Below, one piece after another: positions 28,374 through 59,567 of a stretch of 64,000 nt of DNA. Every line of letters starts with the position of its first letter. The first letter of the stretch is position 1. Both the position numbers and the translations under genes were made by a program. The stretch covers positions 685,001-749,000 of the forward strand of contig NZ_CP013630.1 in assembly GCF_001664485.1 (NCBI RefSeq), given 5' to 3'. Source of the DNA: Rhizobium sp. N324 (GTDB lineage Bacteria; Pseudomonadota; Alphaproteobacteria; Rhizobiales; Rhizobiaceae). The notes below the pieces were generated by a model. It did no database searches. It was not told where the DNA came from and saw only the letters and a list, made by a program, of their open reading frames with translations.

Positions 28374-28619
28374 CTAAAGCGCGTCGCCGGAACCGAGGTT
28401 CTCCGCGACGCGCTTTAAAGCGCAGCCAGTCACTTGAAGGGTAGTCGCCTGCGACACGGCGATCAACGGCCGCTTTGCCGCACGCCGGATTTGTCAACAG
28501 TCTCGGAGTTTCAATGCATGTCGCCCGGAAGTGTGCAGCGGTTCCGGGATAACGACATGCATAAGACGAGGAGCTAAAGCGGGTCGCATGAACGAAGTTC
28601 GATGCGCGACGCGCTTTAG
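28374..28619. repeat. RIME-like palindromic mosaic element between fliG and flhB
   Basis: Three palindromic blocks in 246 bases. The first (28374-28418) pairs CTAAAGCGCGTCGC with GCGACGCGCTTTA. The middle (28514-28562) has ATGCATGTCGCCCGGAA paired with TTCCGGG and CGACATGCAT. The third (28574-28619) pairs CTAAAGCGGGTCGC with GCGACGCGCTTTAG. The outer blocks share the CTAAAGCG/CGCTTTA ends in inverted orientation. The middle block recurs at 33147-33196. The fliG TAA stop (28616-28618) lies inside the third block. Such composites are known in Rhizobiaceae as intergenic mosaic elements. Confidence 0.8.
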
Positions 28620-29656
28620 GCGGCCGCCGAAGCGTCGCCTTCCTTCTCCTTGAGCTCGATCTGGCCGGAGTTGGCCAGGCGAATCGCTTCCTGCGCCACG
28701 GCGCGCCGGGCAATGGCGATCTCGCGCGGATTGACGCCGCCCATGCCGCTCTGCAGATCCGATTCGATCATGCGGCGCTGGCGCGGGCTGATGGCGGAGA
28801 GAACCGATTCGCGGATTTCGGCCGGCGAACCGCGCAGCGAGACGGTGAGTACATCCGTCGAGATGTCGTTGAGCAGCAGGACGCGGCTGCGCTGCGGCAT
28901 GTACATGAGGTCCTCGAACAGGAAGATCTTCGGGCGGACCTTGTTGACGGATTCGCGGCTGATCGATTCGAGCGAGGTGAGCAGCGTGTCGACCTGCGGC
29001 TTGTCGAGCTCGTTCATGAGATCGGCGACCTTCGTCGAGCCGGCCGCATTGCGCTCTGCCTCGACCTCGGCAAGCAGCGTCATCACCTGGTTCTCGATGA
29101 TCTGCGCAGCCTTCGGGCTGACGGTCTTCATGTTGACGGTTCTGTTCATGATGTCGGCGCGGCGGTTGTCGGGAAGCTGCAGCAGCACCTTGGCGCCGAA
29201 ATTGGACGGCATCATCGAAAGAATATAGGCAACGGTCTGCGGATGTTCGCGCAGCAGGAACTGGGCGACGAATGTCGGCTCCGCCTCGCTGAGGCGATCC
29301 CAGATCGAAGTTTCGTAGGCCTGGAACGCCGTGCGGCGGCCGAGCAGGCTGTCGACCTCGTCGGGCGTCAGGCCCTCTTCCAGAATGGCTTCGATCGCCT
29401 TGGCATTGTCCATCAGTCCGGCGCCCTCGGTGAAGAGGTCTTCGAATTCGCCGACGAGCATCAGGAGCTCGTCCGGCGGAATGGCGCGCAGCGACTGGGC
29501 GGATGCGATAATGGTCTGCAGTTCAGCCTGGGTGAAATATTTCAACAGCCGGCCGGCGACGCCCTTTCCCATAGCGAGAAGAACAGCCGCCGCCTTTTCA
29601 GCCTGGGTCAACGGTTTCCCGGCTAGCGCGCCGCCGAAATCGTCAAAGTCCATCAT
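28616..29656 (-). CDS. fliG: Flagellar motor switch protein FliG
   Basis: A 346-residue C-ring protein joining FliF to the rotor and contacting MotA. Recognisable blocks: PLTQAEKAAAVLLAMGKG near the N-terminus, LLREHPQTVAYILSMM (about 172-187), PQRSRVLLLNDISTDV (about 254-269) and the C-terminal torque domain with RQRRMIESDL. It starts ATG-ATG; the usual start is uncertain by one codon. The stop codon is supplied by the palindromic repeat downstream. Confidence 0.96.
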   Translation of the reverse strand: MMDFDDFGGALAGKPLTQAEKAAAVLLAMGKGVAGRLLKYFTQAELQTIIASAQSLRAIPPDELLMLVGEFEDLFTEGAGLMDNAKAIEAILEEGLTPDEVDSLLGRRTAFQAYETSIWDRLSEAEPTFVAQFLLREHPQTVAYILSMMPSNFGAKVLLQLPDNRRADIMNRTVNMKTVSPKAAQIIENQVMTLLAEVEAERNAAGSTKVADLMNELDKPQVDTLLTSLESISRESVNKVRPKIFLFEDLMYMPQRSRVLLLNDISTDVLTVSLRGSPAEIRESVLSAISPRQRRMIESDLQSGMGGVNPREIAIARRAVAQEAIRLANSGQIELKEKEGDASAAA

Positions 29657-41533: not shown

Positions 41534-43450
41534 TTACTCGGTGGCGAACGGCGCCGTGCGCGGCGGCAGCGCCGCAATGTCCATGTGCTCGGGTTCGAGG
41601 CGCTGTTTGGCGCGCTCGGCCATGATTTCGTAAGCCTGCTCCAGATGGTCGCAGAAACGTTCGGCGTCGAAGAGCGGCGCAATATAGCGCTTCTCTTTCA
41701 GATGCGCCTTGTACTCGGCGATCCGTCCGGGATTCTGCGCCAGTTCGACGGCGAGATCCTCGTAGGCCTGCAGGTCGGTTGCAACGAGCTCGGGCAGGTC
41801 GATGGCCCGCAGCAGGCTCTCGCTGACGCGTGAGGCGAAGTTGGTGCCCTTGACGGTCAGCACCGGCAGGCCGCCCCAGAGCTGCTCCGAGGTGGTCGTG
41901 TGGCCGTTGACCGGGAAGGTGTCGATGCCGAGATCGGCCGCCTGCTGGCGGTCGATATGCTGTTCGTAGGGGGCGCGCGGGCAGAAAATGATGCGCTTAG
42001 GCGAAATGCCCGCCGTCTGGAACTGCTTCAAAAGGTTCGCCTGGTTGCGCGGCGTGTTCGCCATCAGCCAAAGCACGCTGTTCGGCGCCCGCTTGAGAAT
42101 GCGGCACCAGCTGTCGATCGTCTCCGGCGTGATCTTGCGGTTGCCGTTGAACGAGGCGAAGATGAAGGCCTCTTCCGGCAGACCCAGCTGCTCGCGGGTG
42201 ACCGGGCGCGGCTTCGGGCGGTGCATCGGGTCGTTCGGCTGATAGCTTTCCGGCAGCCGGCAGAATTTCTCATGGTAGAAGGGCTTGGCCACCTCGGGCA
42301 ATACCGAATGGTCGCCGATGACATAGTCGAGATCGATATTGACCGTGCTGCCGGGGAAACCGAGCCAGCCGACGTGGACCGGTGCCAGCGGCAGGTTGAA
42401 GACTGTCGCGCGGCTGCCAGAGGTATGGCCCTTCAGGTCGACCATGATGTCGATATTGTGCTCGCGCACGACCGCCAGCACCGCCTGGTCGGAGAAGCCG
42501 TGAACGTCGACGATCCGGCCCCAGCGGCTGCGGTCGGTCACATTGTGCTTCAGGTATTCCGGACCCGTATGGCAAAACAGCGTCACCTCGAACCGGTCCT
42601 TGTCGTGCAGTTCGAGGATGCGCTGCAACAGCTTCATCGTCGCATGGCGATCCCAGAAGTCCGACGACATGTAGCCGATCCGGATCTTGTTCGACCATGT
42701 ATGCGGCTGGTTGCGGCGGAGGGCTACCCGTTCCGGGTTGAGGGGGGTGGTGCCGATCGTCGCATGCCGGTTGAAATCCTCGTTGCCGCACCAGTGCAGA
42801 TGATAGAACGGGTTGTCCTTGCGCAGGATCTCGATATCGCCCTCCGCCAGGGCCGCGTCGATCACCGCCTGATGTTTGCTGGCCTCTTCGAAATCGTTGA
42901 ATTCGCGCGCGAAAACCAGATGCAGGAAGCGGAATGCGTGATTGCCGGGAAACCGCTTGAAGAGGTTGCGCGAGAGGCTCTGGTTGGTTGCGTCGTTCAG
43001 ATCGTCGCTCAGGAGCAGGGCAGCCAGGCGCATATGATCGGGATTGGCACTCTGTGACAGCACCGTCTTGAACGGGCGAATGATATCCCGCTGCTGCCGC
43101 TTCAGATAGATTGCGGTGATGATGAAGGCGAGTTCCGCGTCATCCTGCGCCTTGGCGAGGTTTCGCATGGCAATCAGCAGGGCATCATCCTCGTTGCCGA
43201 TCTCATAATGCAGCTTGGCAGCTTGTTTCTGGTATTCGTAGGCATTCGGCCCTTCGCAGTTGCCGGCCAGGCCATAGGCTTTCGCGGCATCGGCCTTGAA
43301 GCCGAGCTGCACGAGGTTCTTGGCCAGCAGCGCGTAGGTCTTGGCGTCCTGCTGGATATCCATGAGCTGGTTGAGCGTCGCCAAGGACTGTGTGTAGCGG
43401 CCGGCCTGGTAATCTCTGGATGCCGCAGAGAACGAAACTTTGCTGTTCAA
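41534..43450 (-). CDS. SPINDLY/GT41-like O-GlcNAc-transferase family protein
   Basis: A 638-residue cytoplasmic protein. TPR-like helical repeats fill about 1-200 (ASRDYQAGRYTQSLATLNQL, ALLAKNLVQLGFKADAAKAYGLAG). The catalytic GT41 region follows: IRIGYMSSDFWDRHATMKLL, VDLKGHTSGSR, PVHVGWLGFPGST and FASFNGNRKITPETIDSWCRIL, then NGHTTTSEQLWGGLPVLTVKG. I chose a TTG start at 43450 because GGAG lies about 9 bases upstream; the next upstream ATG lacks support. The gene lies between the flagellar export genes and the flagellin cluster, so flagellins are the obvious candidate substrate. That is inference. Confidence 0.85.
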   Translation of the reverse strand: MNSKVSFSAASRDYQAGRYTQSLATLNQLMDIQQDAKTYALLAKNLVQLGFKADAAKAYGLAGNCEGPNAYEYQKQAAKLHYEIGNEDDALLIAMRNLAKAQDDAELAFIITAIYLKRQQRDIIRPFKTVLSQSANPDHMRLAALLLSDDLNDATNQSLSRNLFKRFPGNHAFRFLHLVFAREFNDFEEASKHQAVIDAALAEGDIEILRKDNPFYHLHWCGNEDFNRHATIGTTPLNPERVALRRNQPHTWSNKIRIGYMSSDFWDRHATMKLLQRILELHDKDRFEVTLFCHTGPEYLKHNVTDRSRWGRIVDVHGFSDQAVLAVVREHNIDIMVDLKGHTSGSRATVFNLPLAPVHVGWLGFPGSTVNIDLDYVIGDHSVLPEVAKPFYHEKFCRLPESYQPNDPMHRPKPRPVTREQLGLPEEAFIFASFNGNRKITPETIDSWCRILKRAPNSVLWLMANTPRNQANLLKQFQTAGISPKRIIFCPRAPYEQHIDRQQAADLGIDTFPVNGHTTTSEQLWGGLPVLTVKGTNFASRVSESLLRAIDLPELVATDLQAYEDLAVELAQNPGRIAEYKAHLKEKRYIAPLFDAERFCDHLEQAYEIMAERAKQRLEPEHMDIAALPPRTAPFATE

Positions 43451-43801
43451 AACCCAACTCCGTGAAGGAAATGTTCTGGCATGGCTGTCGATTGCCGACA
43501 CGCACGAGCCGTCCTCCCCGAAAACGGGTGGGTCGATCCGATGATGCTATCCCGGCGCCTGCCACATTGTCATGTGAAGCTTGCTTGAAACCGGTGCGCC
43601 TCATGAAGACGCTTCCTTTCATGAGAGAAAACGGTTTCTTTCCCCGTATGTTAGCATGCGAAGGAATTGATTCAGCCGGCATTAACTATGCGATGTAAGG
43701 AGCCTGCACGGGGCCTCTATTTTTAAGAAGTTGGCAAGCATTGGCTGCGAGATTGCCCTGGACATGACGGGTTTGGGCCAAACAAAAAAAGGCGCCGAGT
43801 A
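43451..43801. promoter_or_regulatory. Region between glycosyltransferase and flaA
   Basis: No convincing gene. It should contain divergent promoters for the glycosyltransferase and flaA. Features seen: a perfect inverted repeat at 43601-43626, a small AACGGTT palindrome near 43631-43637, and an AT-rich segment with CTATTTTTAAG near 43714-43728 upstream of flaA. Confidence 0.4.
43601..43626. promoter_or_regulatory. Perfect inverted repeat upstream of the glycosyltransferase (candidate operator)
   Basis: CTCATGAA (43601-43608) and TTCATGAG (43619-43626) are perfect complements around a 10-base centre. It lies about 150 bases upstream of the glycosyltransferase start and 255 upstream of flaA. 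The overall length matches the 26-base palindrome before rem, though the sequence differs. Confidence 0.4.
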
Positions 43802-43815
43802 GCATGAAGCTGGTC
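43802..43815 (+). promoter_or_regulatory. Conserved flagellin upstream element, flaA copy
   Basis: GCATGAAGCTGGTC, 79 bases before the flaA ATG. Matching elements lie 80 bases before flaB and 78 before flaC. The fixed spacing suggests a core-promoter or activator site. Confidence 0.55.
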
Positions 43816-43823
43816 CGTCATCG

Positions 43824-43875
43824 CCGGTACTTAGTCCGGTATGTCCTCCTTTTTGTATCTAGTTTCCAGGGGACA
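43824..43875 (+). promoter_or_regulatory. flaA leader: tandem hairpins, second masks the ribosome-binding site
   Basis: First hairpin CCGG (43824-43827), 8-base loop, CCGG (43836-43839). Second hairpin TGTCCTC (43842-43848) pairs with GGGGACA (43869-43875), all seven positions paired (one T-G). The GGGG is the Shine-Dalgarno, 8 bases before ATG 43881. The same layout occurs before flaB and flaC, with a C-G to T-A exchange at one stem position. Confidence 0.7.
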
Positions 43876-43880
43876 GATTT

Positions 43881-44786
43881 ATGACAAGCATTAACACCAA
43901 CACTTCCGCACAGGCCGCTCTCCAGACGCTGCGCGACGTCAACCAGGGTCTCCAGTCAACCCAGGCTCACGTTTCGTCCGGCTATCGTGTCGGCAAGGCA
44001 TCTGACAACGCGGCATATTGGTCGATCGCAACGACCATGCGCTCGGACAACAAGGCACTTTCCGCCGTTTCCGACGCTCTCGGCATGGGTGCTGCCAAGG
44101 TCGACACCGCTTACACCGCCATGGACAGCGCCATCGACGTCGTCGGCGACATCAAGGCCAAGCTGGTTGCCGCCACTGAAAACGGCGTCGACAAGGCCAA
44201 GGTCCAGGAAGAAATCGGCCAGCTGCAGGAGCAGTTGAAGAGCATCGCTCAGTCGGCTTCCTTCAACGGCGAAAACTGGGTTGCCGGCGCTGACGGCACC
44301 AAGAGCGTCGTTTCGTCCTTCGTCCGTGACGGCTCCAACGCCGTTTCGGTCACCACGACCGACTACGTTCTCGACGACGGCTCCGCAGGCAACGTTCTGT
44401 TCGGCATGAGCAACGGCTCGGTCGAAACCTCCACGGGTATCCTCGGCACGTCGAATGGTGCGACCGGTTCTGTCTACTCGATGGACATCACCAACTTCAC
44501 CGCCGGCCAGATCCAGACGGCCCTGACCAACGTCGAAGCCGCTCTGAAGTCCATGACCAGCGCCGGTGCTGCTCTCGGCTCGCTCTCCAAGCGGATCGAC
44601 AGCCAGGACGAATTCGTGTCCGCTCTCAGCGACTCGATCGACTCCGGTGTCGGCCGTCTCGTCGACGCCAACATGGAAGAAGAATCTTCCAAGCTCAGCG
44701 CCCTGCAGACCCAGCAGCAGCTGGCGATCCAGTCGCTGTCGATCGCGAATTCCTCTTCGCAGAACATCCTGTCGCTCTTCCGCTAA
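43881..44786 (+). CDS. flaA: Flagellin FlaA
   Basis: A 301-residue short rhizobial flagellin consisting of the D0/D1 core with a reduced central part. N-terminal core: QAALQTLRDVNQGLQSTQAHVSSGYRVGKASDNAAYWSIA; C-terminal core: EEESSKLSALQTQQQLAIQSLSIANSSSQNILSLFR. In rhizobia FlaA is the principal subunit and is needed for a functional filament. It has its own promoter region and a structured leader, and a terminator follows at 44811. It is highly similar to FlaB and FlaC, indicating local duplication. Confidence 0.96.
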   Translation: MTSINTNTSAQAALQTLRDVNQGLQSTQAHVSSGYRVGKASDNAAYWSIATTMRSDNKALSAVSDALGMGAAKVDTAYTAMDSAIDVVGDIKAKLVAATENGVDKAKVQEEIGQLQEQLKSIAQSASFNGENWVAGADGTKSVVSSFVRDGSNAVSVTTTDYVLDDGSAGNVLFGMSNGSVETSTGILGTSNGATGSVYSMDITNFTAGQIQTALTNVEAALKSMTSAGAALGSLSKRIDSQDEFVSALSDSIDSGVGRLVDANMEEESSKLSALQTQQQLAIQSLSIANSSSQNILSLFR

Positions 44787-44810
44787 GAGCGGTCGGCAAA
44801 GGCCTTCTAG

Positions 44811-44848
44811 TTTCGCGGCCGGGTCATCCCCGGCCGCGAAATGTTTTA
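44811..44848 (+). terminator. Terminator after flaA
   Basis: TTTCGCGGCCGGG pairs with CCCGGCCGCGAAA around a short TCATC-type loop, followed by TGTTTT. It lies 25 bases after the flaA stop codon. Confidence 0.88.
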
Positions 44849-44987
44849 ACATAAGGTTAATGAAAATTCTCCTAAGTGTCAGATATTTTTACGCTATTTC
44901 CATTTTGAATTTAGCTTTCCTTAACCATCTTGCTGTTTTCTAGGCCCATCGAAACGGCGAGTTAACCTTAACGAGAATGGTTAACAG

Positions 44988-45001
44988 GCATGATGCTGAT
45001 C
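44988..45001 (+). promoter_or_regulatory. Conserved flagellin upstream element, flaB copy
   Basis: GCATGATGCTGATC, 80 bases before the flaB ATG. Farther upstream flaB and flaC also share TTAACCAT exactly 147 bases before each ATG, followed by TGCTGTTTTCT and then GGTTAACA, so most of the upstream region is duplicated. Confidence 0.55.
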
Positions 45002-45009
45002 GCTGTGGG

Positions 45010-45059
45010 CCGGCCGAAAATCCGGAATGTCCCTTTTTAAAATCTGCCAACAAGGGGCA
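45010..45059 (+). promoter_or_regulatory. flaB leader: tandem hairpins, second masks the ribosome-binding site
   Basis: First hairpin CCGG (45010-45013), 8-base loop, CCGG (45022-45025). Second hairpin TGTCCCTT (45028-45035) pairs with AAGGGGCA (45052-45059), eight positions with one T-G pair. The GGGG Shine-Dalgarno lies 10 bases before ATG 45068. Confidence 0.7.
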
Positions 45060-45067
45060 AACAAACT

Positions 45068-45976
45068 ATGACGAGCATCAACACCAATAACGCTGCAATG
45101 GCAGCCCTCCAGACTCTCCGTGGCATCAACCAGGGTCTCCAGACAACCCAGGCTCACGTTTCCTCAGGCTATCGCGTCGGCCAGGCTTCCGACAATGCTG
45201 CTTACTGGTCGATCGCAACGACCATGCGTTCGGACAACAAGGCACTTTCGGCCGTTTCCGACGCGCTCGGTCTTGGCGCCGCCAAGGTCGACACCGCTTA
45301 CTCCGCCATGGACAGCGCCATCGACGTCGTCGGCGACATCAAGGCCAAGCTGGTTGCCGCCACTGAAAACGGCGTCGACAAGGCCAAGGTCCAGGAAGAA
45401 ATCAGCCAGCTGCAGCAGCAGCTCCTGAGCGTCGCACAGTCGGCTTCCTTCTCCGGTGAAAACTGGGTTGCCGGTGCTGACGGCACCAAGAACGTCGTTG
45501 CCTCCTTCGTCCGTGACGGCTCCAACGCCGTATCGGTCGTGATGACCGACTACGTTCTCGACGACAGCTCGGCAGGCAACGTTCTGTTCGGCATGAGCGG
45601 CGGCGCGGTCGAAACCTCCACGGGTATCCTCGGTACTTCGAATGGTGCGACCGGTTCTGTCTATGGGATGGACATCACTAACTTCACCCTGGGCCAGATC
45701 CAGTCGGCTCTGACCAACGTCGAAGCGGCTCTGAAGTCCATGACCAGCGCCGGCGCTGCTCTCGGCTCGATCTCCAAGCGTATCGAACTGCAGGAAAACT
45801 TCGTGTCGGCTCTCAGCGACTCGATCGACTCCGGTGTCGGCCGTCTCGTTGATGCCAACATGGAAGAAGAATCCTCCAAGCTCAGCGCCCTGCAGACCCA
45901 GCAGCAGCTGGCCGTCCAGTCGCTGTCGATCGCGAACTCTTCTTCGCAGACCATCCTCACGCTGTTCCGAGGCTAA
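45068..45976 (+). CDS. flaB: Flagellin FlaB
   Basis: A 302-residue flagellin, nearly identical in the conserved ends to FlaA (AALQTLRGINQGLQTTQAHVSSGYRVGQASDNAAYWSIA; LQTQQQLAVQSLSIANSSSQTILTLFRG). Differences gather in the centre and near residue 240. It is a secondary filament subunit. It has its own leader and is followed by two hairpins, the second a clear terminator. Confidence 0.96.
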   Translation: MTSINTNNAAMAALQTLRGINQGLQTTQAHVSSGYRVGQASDNAAYWSIATTMRSDNKALSAVSDALGLGAAKVDTAYSAMDSAIDVVGDIKAKLVAATENGVDKAKVQEEISQLQQQLLSVAQSASFSGENWVAGADGTKNVVASFVRDGSNAVSVVMTDYVLDDSSAGNVLFGMSGGAVETSTGILGTSNGATGSVYGMDITNFTLGQIQSALTNVEAALKSMTSAGAALGSISKRIELQENFVSALSDSIDSGVGRLVDANMEEESSKLSALQTQQQLAVQSLSIANSSSQTILTLFRG

Positions 45977-45995
45977 TAACCCTTGGAAACATTGG

Positions 45996-46057
45996 CCCGC
46001 CGGTCTCCGGCGGGCACATCGGAAACGAGCCGCGCTTCAATGGAGCGCGGCTTTTTT
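45996..46057 (+). terminator. Two consecutive hairpins after flaB
   Basis: The first is CCCGCCGG-TCT-CCGGCGGG at 45996-46014. The second is AGCCGCGCT (46028-46036) with AGCGCGGCT (46044-46052), followed by TTTTTT (46052-46057). The second is a classical terminator; the first may stabilise the mRNA end. Confidence 0.88.
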
Positions 46058-46145
46058 AATGTCTGTTAACGGTTGATTAACCATAATGCTGTTTTCTCGG
46101 GTCAACGAGACGGCGGGTTAACCAAATTTAAGAACCGGTTAACAG

Positions 46146-46159
46146 GCATGAGGCTGGTC
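46146..46159 (+). promoter_or_regulatory. Conserved flagellin upstream element, flaC copy
   Basis: GCATGAGGCTGGTC, 78 bases before the flaC ATG. Across the three genes the consensus is GCATGA-N-GCTG(A/G)TC. TTAACCAT at 46077 again lies 147 bases before the ATG, as for flaB. Confidence 0.55.
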
Positions 46160-46166
46160 CCCGTTC

Positions 46167-46215
46167 CCGGTAGCTTTCCGGAATGTCCCTTTTTATCAAC
46201 TGCCGACAAGGGGCA
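46167..46215 (+). promoter_or_regulatory. flaC leader: tandem hairpins, second masks the ribosome-binding site
   Basis: First hairpin CCGG (46067 + 100, i.e. 46167-46170), 7-base loop, CCGG (46178-46181). Second hairpin TGTCCCTT (46184-46191) pairs with AAGGGGCA (46208-46215). The GGGG Shine-Dalgarno lies 10 bases before ATG 46224. Loop sequences differ from flaB while both stems are kept. Confidence 0.7.
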
Positions 46216-46223
46216 ATCATTTC

Positions 46224-47135
46224 ATGACCAGCATTTTGACCAACGTTGCGGCGATGGCCGCTCTTCAGACACTCCGCGGAATTAATGACGGCCTCGAAGC
46301 TACGCAGAACCGCGTATCATCGGGCTACCGCGTCGAAAAGGCAGCCGACAACGCCGCCTACTGGTCGATCGCAACGACCATGCGTTCTGATAACAAGGCA
46401 CTCTCCGCCGTCTCCGACGCTCTCGGTCTCGGCGCTGCTAAAGTCGATACCGCCTACTCCGCCATGGACAGCGCCATCGACATCATCAGCGAAATTAAGG
46501 CGAAGATCGTTGCCGCGACCGAAAAGGGCGTCGACAAGACCAAGGTCCAGGAAGAAATCGGCCAGCTGCAGCAGCAGCTGCTCAGCATCGCGCAATCGGC
46601 TTCCTTCTCCGGTGAAAACTGGGTTGCCGGCGCCGACGGCACCAAGAGCGTGGTTTCCACCTTCGTTCGTGATGGCAACGGCAATGTCTCGGTCAAGACG
46701 ACGGACTACATCCTGGACACAAGCTCCGCGGGCAACGTTCTCTTCGGCATGACCTCGACTGGCACGATCGACACGGCCGCCGGCATTATCGGCACATCAT
46801 ACGGCACGATCGGCTCGATCTATTCGATGGACATCAGCACCTTCGGCTCGGTTGAGATCTCCATGGCCTTGACGTCGATCGAGGCCGGCCTGGAAGCAAT
46901 GACCAAGGCAGCATCGCAGCTCGGCTCGATTTCTACGCGCATCGACCTGCAGGAAAATTTCGTCGGCGCGCTCAGCGACTCGATCGACTCGGGTGTCGGC
47001 CGCCTCGTCGATGCCGACATGGAGGAAGAATCGAGTAAGCTGACGGCGTTGCAAACGCAGCAACAGCTGGCGATCCAGTCGCTGTCGATCGCCAACTCCA
47101 GCGCGCAGAACATCCTGACGCTGTTCCGCAGCTAA
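46224..47135 (+). CDS. flaC: Flagellin FlaC
   Basis: A 303-residue flagellin, somewhat more diverged than FlaA and FlaB: NDGLEATQNRVSSGYRVEKAADNAAYWS at the N-terminal core and LTALQTQQQLAIQSLSIANSSAQNILTLFRS at the C-terminal one. The central part differs (TGTIDTAAGIIGTSYGTIGS). It keeps the conserved promoter element and structured leader. A terminator follows. Confidence 0.96.
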   Translation: MTSILTNVAAMAALQTLRGINDGLEATQNRVSSGYRVEKAADNAAYWSIATTMRSDNKALSAVSDALGLGAAKVDTAYSAMDSAIDIISEIKAKIVAATEKGVDKTKVQEEIGQLQQQLLSIAQSASFSGENWVAGADGTKSVVSTFVRDGNGNVSVKTTDYILDTSSAGNVLFGMTSTGTIDTAAGIIGTSYGTIGSIYSMDISTFGSVEISMALTSIEAGLEAMTKAASQLGSISTRIDLQENFVGALSDSIDSGVGRLVDADMEEESSKLTALQTQQQLAIQSLSIANSSAQNILTLFRS

Positions 47136-47434: not shown

Positions 47435-48397
47435 ATGACCGTTAAGATTACCAGCGCGGCCGCGGTGAATGCGCTTGCGGTGCTGCGCAGCATCAACAAA
47501 GAAGCCAGCCAGACCCAGCAGCAAGTGTCCTCGGGATACCGTATCGAGACGGCCGCCGACGATGCGTCCTACTGGTCGGTCGCGACCGTCATGCGCTCGG
47601 ACAGCACCAATCTCGGGACGATCGGGGATGCGCTCGGTCTCGGAGCTGCCAAGGTGGACGCGACCTATACGGCGATGAACTCGGCCATCGATCTTATGGG
47701 CCAGATTCGCGCCAAGCTGGTCGCGGCGAGAGAGCCGGGCACAGACAAGGACAAGATCAACGCCGAGATCGGCGAATATAAAGAACAGCTGCAGACGATC
47801 GTCGAATCGACATCGTTTGCGGGTGAGAACTGGCTGCTGAACGGCAATACCACCGCGCCTCCGACATGGTCTGTGATCTCAAGCTTCGTGCGCGCCCCGA
47901 CCGGCGAATATCAGGCCCGGACCATCGATTTCCCGTCGTCGCAGACCATCCTCGTCGACAAGAACAATGCGAGCGGCGGCCTGTTGACCAAGGCGGTCGA
48001 TGCCAATGCGATCAACAACAGCGGCGCGACGGCGCGCAACTACTACCTACTCAACGCCAACTCGACCACGCCGGCGACCGGGACGGAAATTGCGATCAGC
48101 AATACCACGACGGATGCGCAACTTACCGACATGCTTGATGTGACCGACTCGCTGCTCGCCACGCTGACGACGACAGCCGCATCCATTGGCGTGATGAAGA
48201 CGCGCATCGACGATCAGATAGACTATACGGCCGATCTCTCCGATTCGATCGACAAGAGCGTCGGTGCGCTTGTCGATACCGACATGGACGAGGCCTCGAT
48301 CCGGCAGAAGGCGATCGAAACCCAGAAGCAGATGGCCGTCGAGGCGATTTCGATCCTCAATACGGCGTCGAGCAAGATTCTGATCCTGCTGGAATAA
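47435..48397 (+). CDS. flaD: Divergent flagellin FlaD
   Basis: A 320-residue flagellin clearly related at both ends (NALAVLRSINKEASQTQQQVSSGYRIETAADDASYWSVA; IETQKQMAVEAISILNTASSKILILLE) but with a longer, unrelated middle. It lacks the GCATGA element and the structured leader of flaA-flaC, and the sequence before ATG 47435 (GAGACCCTGTCG) has only a weak ribosome-binding site. A minor filament subunit with separate control is likely. Confidence 0.93.
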   Translation: MTVKITSAAAVNALAVLRSINKEASQTQQQVSSGYRIETAADDASYWSVATVMRSDSTNLGTIGDALGLGAAKVDATYTAMNSAIDLMGQIRAKLVAAREPGTDKDKINAEIGEYKEQLQTIVESTSFAGENWLLNGNTTAPPTWSVISSFVRAPTGEYQARTIDFPSSQTILVDKNNASGGLLTKAVDANAINNSGATARNYYLLNANSTTPATGTEIAISNTTTDAQLTDMLDVTDSLLATLTTTAASIGVMKTRIDDQIDYTADLSDSIDKSVGALVDTDMDEASIRQKAIETQKQMAVEAISILNTASSKILILLE

Positions 48398-58773: not shown

Positions 58774-59121
58774 ATGTATCAGTTCTCTTATGCCGAAGTC
58801 ATGCAGGACTCGGTGGCCGACGCGAAAGAGCGGGAATGGCAGGTTCTTGACCGGTCCATAGATCTGCTGTCGTTGGCGCGCGACAAGGAAAAATACGGCC
58901 GGGAAGCCATCGAAGCCCTGTTTTATACGCGCCGGGTGTGGATCAGCTTCATCGAGGATCTGAAACATCCCGACAACCAGCTGGAGATCGAGCTCAGGGC
59001 CAACCTCATCTCGATCGCGATCTGGATATTGAAGGAATGCGACAGGATCCGAAAACGTCTGTCGAATAACTATCAGGGCATCATCGACGTTACCACCATC
59101 ATCAGGGATGGACTTAAATGA
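58774..59121 (+). CDS. flaF: Flagellin biosynthesis regulator FlaF
   Basis: A 115-residue helical cytoplasmic protein: [27 protein letters not shown] and [24 protein letters not shown] helix ([20 protein letters not shown]). In alphaproteobacteria FlaF promotes flagellin synthesis or secretion and works with FlbT. The stop codon overlaps the flbT ATG by 4 bases, so the pair is translationally coupled. Its likely target in this window is the leader of flaA-flaC. Confidence 0.93.
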
Positions 59122-59567
59122 AAAGTACACTTCGCATTTCTCTGAAAGCCGGAGAAAGAATCTTCATCAACGGCGCCGTCCTGCGTGTCGACCGCAAGGT
59201 CGCGCTGGAATTCCTGAATGATGTGACTTTCCTTCTCGAAAACCACGTCCTCCAGCCGGAAGGCGCCACCACGCCGCTGCGCCAGCTCTATTTCATCGCG
59301 CAGATGATCCTCATCAATCCCGAGGGCAAGGACCACTCGACGGCGATGTTCCGCAAGTCGATCACCATGCTGCTCACCTGCTTCAAGAACGAGGAAATCC
59401 TCGCCGAACTGAAGCGCATCGATGCACTCGTCTCGACCGGCCGCGCCTTCGACGCGCTGAAGGCGATCCGCGGCCTCTACGCGATCGAAGACAATATCCT
59501 CAACAACCACGAAATGCCGCCGACCATGGTCGAGCAGATTCGCAGGGAGATTGCACCATGGCGGTAG
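59118..59567 (+). CDS. flbT: Flagellin mRNA regulator FlbT
   Basis: A 149-residue protein: [65 protein letters not shown]. In Caulobacter FlbT binds the 5' leader of flagellin mRNA and promotes its turnover when assembly is incomplete; FlaF counteracts it. The start overlaps flaF and the end overlaps flgD by 10 bases. Confidence 0.95.

Follow-up and report, generated by a model that had tools for sequence, protein, structure and literature searches.

A probable RNA switch in the flagellin leaders of Rhizobium sp. N324: a five-helix element that appears to hide the ribosome-binding site

Anderson and Gober are said to have described, in 2000, the control of flagellin mRNA leaders by the protein FlbT in Caulobacter crescentus. 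According to excerpts of the literature, flagellin synthesis in this bacterium is controlled post-transcriptionally through the 5′ untranslated region of the mRNA, FlaF is linked to the system, and FlbT causes decay or repression of the flagellin mRNA (PMC4347634; PMC3930126). FlbT has been proposed to be an activator in Brucella (PMC4347634), and it induces translation of the lateral flagellins LafA1 and LafA2 in Bradyrhizobium (PMC8429497); both flbT and flaF were recovered in a motility screen of Agrobacterium fabrum (PMC9812332). Two other systems are comparable: CsrA and FliW of Campylobacter, in which a leader-binding protein and its protein antagonist govern the translation of flagellin (PMC4894983), although these proteins differ from FlbT and FlaF, and the flg-Rhizobiales RNA motif (RF01736), a structured RNA found in flagellar leaders of the same bacterial order (PMC2864571; PMC3765529). 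Here we analyze a stretch of 64,000 nucleotides (nt) of Rhizobium sp. N324 (the window; the genome is labelled G000), in which the flagellin genes flaA, flaB and flaC are preceded by an RNA element that is probably, judging from its sequence, a switch for flagellum production and appears to hide the ribosome-binding site. Unlike this element, the systems of Brucella and Bradyrhizobium are presented in the excerpted accounts with no description of an RNA structure (PMC4347634; PMC8429497). Among the matches listed from the open-licence literature, no title or opening of an abstract describes a folded flagellin leader in rhizobia.

The comparison of leaders presented below makes it very probable that those of flaA, flaB and flaC hold a selected RNA element of approximately 120 nt, composed of five helices. 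The original prediction had recognized a pair of CCGG sequences followed, 2 nt later, by a second stem covering the Shine-Dalgarno sequence in each of the three leaders. All of the arms of these stems are present in the predicted places; however, they form only the 3′ half of the element (helices P4 and P5), and three further helices (P1, P2 and P3) are located upstream. In the 5′ to 3′ direction, P1 closes a three-way junction with P2 and P3, and is followed by P4 and then by P5. P3 is a mini-hairpin (GGC-AUGAN-GCC) that GCATGANGC can form. P2 is an inverted repeat upstream of GCATGANGC, whose arms differ among leaders yet remain complementary, and a two-base spacer separates its 3′ arm from GCATGA in 56 of 134 leaders. 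P1 joins the 12–14 nt between GCATGANGC and CCGG to the sequence located just 5′ of P2 (examples of its arms are AACGATGG/CCATCGTT, AACGAAGG/CCTTCGTT, AACGCTGG/CCAGCGTT, GAAACAGCGG/CTGCTGTTTC and TAGCGACGG/TCGTTGCTA). P4 is the CCGG pair, and the 3′ arm of P5 is the Shine-Dalgarno sequence. The sequences of P1 and P2 vary freely while their pairing is kept, and those of P3–P5 are mostly conserved, with compensation in distant relatives. A geometrically consistent combination of P1 and P2 was found in 133 of 135 leaders by a permissive search that had no null of its own. An upstream reading frame starting from the AUG of P3 was also considered and rejected, since the three frames are represented 54, 41 and 40 times in 135 leaders and the CCGG gap is not restricted to multiples of three.

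Single-sequence fold energies of the leaders were no better than those of shuffled sequences (see below), so that one genome proves little, and the element was therefore compared among relatives. Leaders were taken from 80 loci anchored on fliP and 30 loci from genomes of the family, which yielded 301 leaders with a length of 95 nt or more, 287 of them distinct. The motif CCGG-N3-25-CCGG-N1-3-TGNCC is present in 226 of the 287 distinct flagellin leaders versus 1.2% of 200,000 random 95-mers drawn from the same loci, and GCATGANGC (with G or C as the fifth base) in 261 of them versus 2.3% of random 95-mers. In 201 of the 207 leaders that have all of these parts, GCATGANGC starts 21–23 nt 5′ of the first CCGG; this spacing is nearly fixed because P3 and the 3′ arm of P1 fill it. 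The gap between the two CCGG sequences ranges from 3 to 22.

We then prepared alignment A1, comprising 136 of 273 candidate leaders preselected by the core GCAT[GC]A.GC of GCATGANGC (near-copies and the copies of L083/L084 were removed). GGG occurs within the last 27 nt of 117 of these 136 leaders, and in 113 of the 117 it lies 6–11 nt before the ATG. For P4 and P5 together, A1 contained 90 double-change cells versus 34.5 in shuffles, the covariation score was 0.214 versus 0.149, and 83% of the cells were paired versus 37–53% when one side was slid. The upstream sequence was sufficient in 134 leaders for a test of P2 and in 135 for a test of P1. P2 scored at least 14 in 63% of leaders versus 13% of shuffles, and P1 scored at least 16 in 61%, versus 10% when sequences were shuffled and 21% when partners were swapped.

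All five helices were analyzed in alignment A2, composed of 45 leaders picked for having P1 and P2, for which reason its pairing percentage is inflated (92.1% of cells paired versus 30–48% when slid). In A2 there were 76 double-change cells versus 23.8 in shuffles, and the covariation score was 0.257 versus 0.161 in shuffles and 0.051–0.099 in slides. The top two of the 6,328 column pairs ranked by covariation are pairs of P1, and five of the top eight belong to P1 or P2. The inner pairs of P3 as well as P4 and P5 vary little within A2, in which P4 is near-invariant; the P3 loop has A, U and A in all 45 rows, and G in 91% (the rows had been preselected by the P3 core). Compensation in these conserved helices is found elsewhere: P3 is GGU/ACC in leader L269 and GAC/GUC in L279, and in the distant relatives G159 and G123 we found compensated forms of P4 (GCCG/CGGC) and P5 (GUCUUUC/GAAAGAC). 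A further set, mixing leaders of the family with others from across the order, had 41 rows, of which 39 were usable and two were dropped. Here the scores of P1, P2, P4 and P5 exceeded those of every one of 100 partner swaps, a control that leaves relatedness in, with small margins for P4 (13.3 versus 12.4) and P5 (14.2 versus 12.8).

Covariation of the kind expected of a structured cis-regulatory RNA was thus found in A1, A2 and the mixed set, although a tree-based null on A1 was not passed. The claim that a selected RNA structure lies over the Shine-Dalgarno sequence is therefore supported by covariation in a wide set of relatives, with the reservation imposed by that null. The changes that the original prediction had noticed between flaA and flaB/flaC (one double change and two swaps involving G-U pairs) also proved correct on reading the sequences.

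Within the window (features lie on the forward strand unless stated otherwise), P1 of the flaA leader is formed by ATGACGG (43764–43770) and CCGTCAT (43815–43821), as assigned by the P1 test. The adjacent P2, GTTTGG/CCGAGT (43771–43776/43795–43800), is weak, contains G-U pairs, and its score of 9.5 is below the thresholds used. P3, AGC-AUGAA-GCU (43801–43811), is visible in the fold and carries the invariant core of A1, by which the rows of that alignment had been selected. P4 (CCGG/CCGG, N8; 43824–43827/43836–43839) is followed by P5 (TGTCCTC/GGGGACA; 43842–43848/43869–43875), which includes the Shine-Dalgarno sequence, and by the flaA gene (43881–44786), an open reading frame (ORF) encoding Flagellin_N and Flagellin_C domains. 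In the flaB leader, the three-way junction (44954–45006) consists of P1 ACGGCGA/TCGCTGT (44954–44960/45000–45006), P2 GTTAACC/GGTTAAC (44961–44967/44979–44985) and P3 (44987–44997); P4 (CCGG/CCGG, N8; 45010–45013/45022–45025) and P5 (TGTCCCTT/AAGGGGCA; 45028–45035/45052–45059), again including the Shine-Dalgarno sequence, precede the flaB ORF (45068–45976). The junction of the flaC leader (46109–46165) contains P1 with a single C-C mismatch (46109–46115/46159–46165), P2 GTTAACC/GGTTAAC (46117–46123/46137–46143) and P3 (46145–46155), and is followed by P4 (CCGG/CCGG, N7; 46167–46170/46178–46181), P5 with the Shine-Dalgarno sequence (TGTCCCTT/AAGGGGCA; 46184–46191/46208–46215) and the flaC ORF (46224–47135). 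The junctions of flaB and flaC were assigned by the P2 test and the permissive search for P1 and P2. In all three leaders P4 was identified by sequence, motif count and alignment (A2 in the case of flaB and flaC), and P5 by sequence, fold and the same alignments; both stems are present in the minimum-energy folds of the short leaders. In the full-length fold of flaA (43760–43848), a 5′ GGACA pairs with the 5′ arm of P5 (UGUCC) and displaces P5. That such a helix, pairing the 5′ end with this arm, occurs in leaders generally was considered and rejected (5% in 98 leaders versus 7% in swapped pairs).

The original prediction was wrong in stating that flaD lacks the structure. The leader of this gene (47435–48397; ORF with Pfam support) keeps, according to its fold, P1 (GCGAC/GTCGC; 47338–47342/47383–47387), P2 (47346–47352/47358–47364), P3 (47366–47376) and P4 (CCGG/CCGG; 47390–47393/47398–47401), and is devoid only of P5, the Shine-Dalgarno stem. 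The suggestion that flaD escapes the control may thus hold for P5, which is absent, but not for P1–P4. The same arrangement was found, by comparison with the element, in the leader of the che operon, whose first gene encodes a methyl-accepting chemotaxis protein (MCP) with a Protoglobin domain: P1 with one mismatch (14328–14334/14376–14382), P2 (14337–14342/14353–14358), P3 (14362–14372) and P4 (14383–14387/14394–14398), with no P5. Since both leaders keep P1–P4 without P5, P1–P4 look like a module shared by a number of class III transcripts, and P5 seems to be an expression platform added to it. In another genome, an MCP gene identified by eye is directly preceded by a complete element (L257 115–236; G149:C1:2229114–2229235), whose P1 (GCATGGCAGA/TCTGCCATGC) is entirely different.

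Two models were used to follow the spread of the element: R1, built from P4 and P5 in A1, and R2, which comprises the five helices. In the window, R2 matched the leaders of flaA (43760–43883, E 4.3e-18), flaB (44950–45070, E 2.4e-27) and flaC (46106–46226, E 1e-28), the latter two being training rows, as well as those of the che operon (E 3.2e-6) and flaD (E 3.1e-4). A search of the whole genome gave the same five leaders, in the order flaC, flaB, flaA, che operon (E 3.5e-4), flaD (E 0.035), followed by a sixth match at E 0.06. When applied to flagellin leaders of the family outside the training set, R2 recovered 15 of 19 (E<=7.6e-9), which are 56–83% identical to the closest training row; L286 was left out of this test (with it, 16 of 20 leaders match) as identical to an A2 training row, and the match in L283 ends approximately 60 nt before the gene start. 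Within the order, an R1 match at E<=0.01 was obtained in 25 of 121 genomes. At the stricter E<=1e-3 there were 41 matches in 19 genomes, 36 of them ending no more than a few nt from the start of a flagellin gene. The other five comprise one ending 37 nt before a flagellin start, two of the che-operon type (that in G029 by position only), one before an MCP gene and one before a gene with a flagellin-like stretch (both by eye). None of the 11 further R1 matches with E between 0.001 and 0.01 is at a flagellin. In the class-wide search, R2 at E<=0.01 matched 4 of 190 genomes, i.e. that of N324 and three others; two of the matches were inspected and look false, and since one of them has an E-value of 9.4e-6, values near that are not proof.

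Another flagellin gene of N324 (G000:C1:4622941–4623870, reverse strand; leader L148) is preceded by GCATGACGC and the first CCGG, with approximately 110 bases inserted between this CCGG and AGTCCGGATGCCCC; a clear P5 was not seen. A 24-mer, GCATGAGGCCGCGATCGGAGCCGG, occurs in ten copies in the genome, on C1, C4, C5 and C6, probably within a repeated element. A gene on the reverse strand that adjoins flaA (41534–43501) encodes a glycosyltransferase family 41 protein, possibly a flagellin glycosyltransferase.

The search of the 64-kb window with Rfam 15 gave no match at the gathering score, and the few matches below the cut-off did not include the leaders. One of them (28504–28645, forward strand) is to the Brucella small RNA BASRCI27 (33.2 bits, cut-off 59.8, E 0.002). 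The flg-Rhizobiales RNA (cut-off 55 bits) was rejected as an identity of the element: it was not matched around the leaders (E<=5) or anywhere in the window (E<=1), and its best match in the genome (E 5.7) is elsewhere. This RNA is also unlike the element in sequence and in its position, which in genome G094 is before a flgF-like rod gene (named by eye). There, RF01736 matches at 103.5 bits (L210 1501–1643; G094:C1:6507829), and the element occupies another locus of G094.

CtrA-like boxes (TTAA-N7-TTAA, at least 7 of 8 positions) were sought in 118 leaders with a combined P1 and P2 score of at least 24. Sixty-three sites start 41–45 nt 5′ of P1, and in bins of 15 nt there are 65 sites between −45 and −31 versus 0–20 in the other bins. 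By the same rule, boxes were read from the sequence upstream of flaB (TTTA-N7-TTAA, 7/8; 44910–44924) and flaC (TTAA-N7-TTAA, 8/8; 46066–46080). From the usual position of CtrA boxes, a start of transcription is expected near P1, which suggests that flagellin transcription starts at this helix. Together with helix covariation upstream of P4 and P5, the position of the boxes is best explained by a transcribed leader of approximately 120 nt. The original prediction would have been refuted by transcription starting inside the stem, which is unlikely because P1–P3 covary upstream of it. In Sinorhizobium meliloti, CtrA is reported to bind the flaA promoter and to control flaA, flaB and flaC directly (PMC4433202). 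The excerpts of the S. meliloti and Agrobacterium literature consulted give no start site for flaA.

Both flaF (58774–59121; PF07309, E 3.5e-33) and flbT (59118–59567; PF07378, E 7.9e-42) are present in the window, as had been predicted, and the product of the latter is a candidate effector. A tree of 21 FlbT sequences falls into two groups (14 and 7) split by long, fully supported branches. Using two profiles, we typed 41 sequences (11 of them training sequences) from a subset of the 80 FlbT-bearing genomes; the FlbT of the window is of type I according to both tree and profile, and that of C. crescentus is presumably of type II. FlbT-I is encoded in all 18 typed genomes that bear the element, and also in G159 and G179. 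In G159 neither model gave a match, and a P3-P4-P5 part with compensated stems is visible by eye. The element lies beside none of the 21 typed copies of FlbT-II. Genomes G094 and G178 carry both types, and in each of them the element is 12–13 kb from the FlbT-I gene; in G094 (8.0 Mb) it precedes both of the flagellins found near FlbT-I. No match at E<=1e-3 was obtained in 18 genomes with FlbT-II only (R1 applied to all, R2 to 17), and in the weaker R2 matches examined there the element is absent or the sequence is coding-like. A PDB sequence search for FlbT gave no match. That the leaders are a target of FlbT and FlaF, as originally proposed, is plausible in view of the presence of both genes, the co-occurrence with FlbT-I and the reviews of FlbT; we consider the chances that FlbT is the effector to be evenly balanced.

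These observations lead us to favour, by a little over even chances, a leader for translational control that is opened by FlbT-I. Transcription of the flagellin genes would begin at P1 or immediately upstream, and the five-helix leader would form the first part of the mRNA. P5 pairs the Shine-Dalgarno sequence with a conserved UGUCC arm, a pairing potential that is preserved among relatives, and translation may consequently be low by default. The three-way junction and P4 would be the receptor module, because the che-operon leader uses them too, with no P5. FlbT-I, whose gene belongs to the same cluster and is inherited together with the element, would bind the leader and open P5 or otherwise admit ribosomes. 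Flagellin synthesis might in this way be tied to the state of flagellum assembly, with FlaF perhaps acting as the antagonist. The activator cases, Brucella and Bradyrhizobium, in which the direction of control is the same as that proposed here (PMC4347634; PMC8429497), would fit a leader that stays closed unless FlbT-I opens it. The excerpted accounts of Caulobacter differ, since FlbT represses or destabilizes there, whereas in N324 the default structure appears to cover the Shine-Dalgarno sequence and FlbT is of type I.

Several observations weigh against this proposal. The fold energies of the short leaders are ordinary when compared with shuffles (z −0.61 for flaA, 0.20 for flaB and −0.90 for flaC), and for 136 extended leaders the mean z is −0.86, with 12% below −2. 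The full-length minimum-energy fold of flaA replaces P5, and those of flaB and flaC miss P1 and P3. RNAalifold applied to A1 recovered P3 only, not P4 or P5. Under the tree-based null on A1, which is heavy-tailed, none of the pairs reached significance; the predicted flank pair of P4 ranked first in the alignment as a whole (E 0.23). The P1 helix of G159 and G123 is not clear, and at least four of the 41 order-wide leaders (L237, L238, L271 and L272) have a degenerate P5 with P1–P4 kept. Genome G179, with FlbT-I, showed no element (nor were its flagellins found), and no FlbT was found in G172, which bears the element and is 86% complete. Inheritance of the flagellar cluster as a unit may be all that links FlbT-I to the element. 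Finally, FlbT is best known for its action on flagellin, and the che leader shares the presumed receptor part.

The last point, together with the flaD leader, bears on the alternative that survives best, although we consider it improbable: the element may protect the abundant flagellin and che mRNAs or bind a general RNA-binding protein, so as to determine stability or timing, with P5 setting a low basal rate of initiation. The occurrence of P1–P4 without P5 implies that an action on the ribosome-binding site is not required of the shared part, and the leaders with a degenerate P5 point in the same direction. However, in P5 of G159 and G123 the Shine-Dalgarno region and its partner have changed together in a compensatory manner, which would be needless in a pure stability role.

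Rather less probable still is a riboswitch, whose junction would bind a small molecule (e.g. a second messenger of motility) that decides the state of P5, with FlbT acting elsewhere. A three-way junction with a conserved loop is an architecture frequent among riboswitches, and the near-invariant P3 loop and P4 (in rows preselected by the P3 core) and the sharing of the element by flagellin and chemotaxis transcripts agree with this explanation. Against it, no Rfam family was found at the cut-off, no metabolic gene was recognized among the 12 match regions inspected, and protein-binding leaders may look alike.

We give very little credence to the view that CCGG-CCGG and GCATGANGC act in the DNA, as sites of a promoter or an activator, and that their pairing is incidental. 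The spacing of 21–23 nt is promoter-like, and GTTAAC in P2 of flaB and flaC is similar to CtrA half-sites. However, the 3′ arm of P1 accounts for the fixed spacing, and CCGG was rejected as a promoter in view of the covariation of the P1 and P2 arms, the variable gap between the CCGG sequences, and the separate CtrA-like boxes at a near-fixed distance upstream. The possibility that GCATGANGC is a sigma-54 or sigma-28 site, considered from consensus sequences only, was dropped once P1 was found.

A thermosensor-like switch in which P5 melts with temperature, as had originally been suggested as well, would agree with a G-U-containing stem over the Shine-Dalgarno sequence but is highly improbable, since the predicted probability that this sequence is unpaired in short leaders barely shifts when the temperature is raised from 15 to 42 °C (flaA, 0.17 to 0.05; flaB, 0.01 to 0.08; flaC, within 0.16–0.23) and no Rfam family, thermometers included, was matched at the cut-off.

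Symbiosis and plant infection are studied with rhizobial, agrobacterial and lateral-flagella systems as models. At stake in these systems is the post-transcriptional timing of class III flagellar genes, and the effects of FlbT are reported to be opposite among alphaproteobacteria. The exact helices, the conserved loop and the matching FlbT subfamily make the proposal testable by point mutations, and the element would add an RNA family that is not recognized by the Rfam 15 search. More speculatively, and with the odds in our view against it, the element may represent a new class of sensor leader RNA in the Hyphomicrobiales, in which the junction with its AUGA loop and P4 form the receptor, with either a second messenger or FlbT-I as its partner, and co-control flagellin and chemotaxis mRNAs, the existence of two FlbT families explaining the opposite effects. 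If this is true, one FlbT family would be tied to the RNA and the other not, which would explain why flagellin is activated in some alphaproteobacteria and repressed in others.

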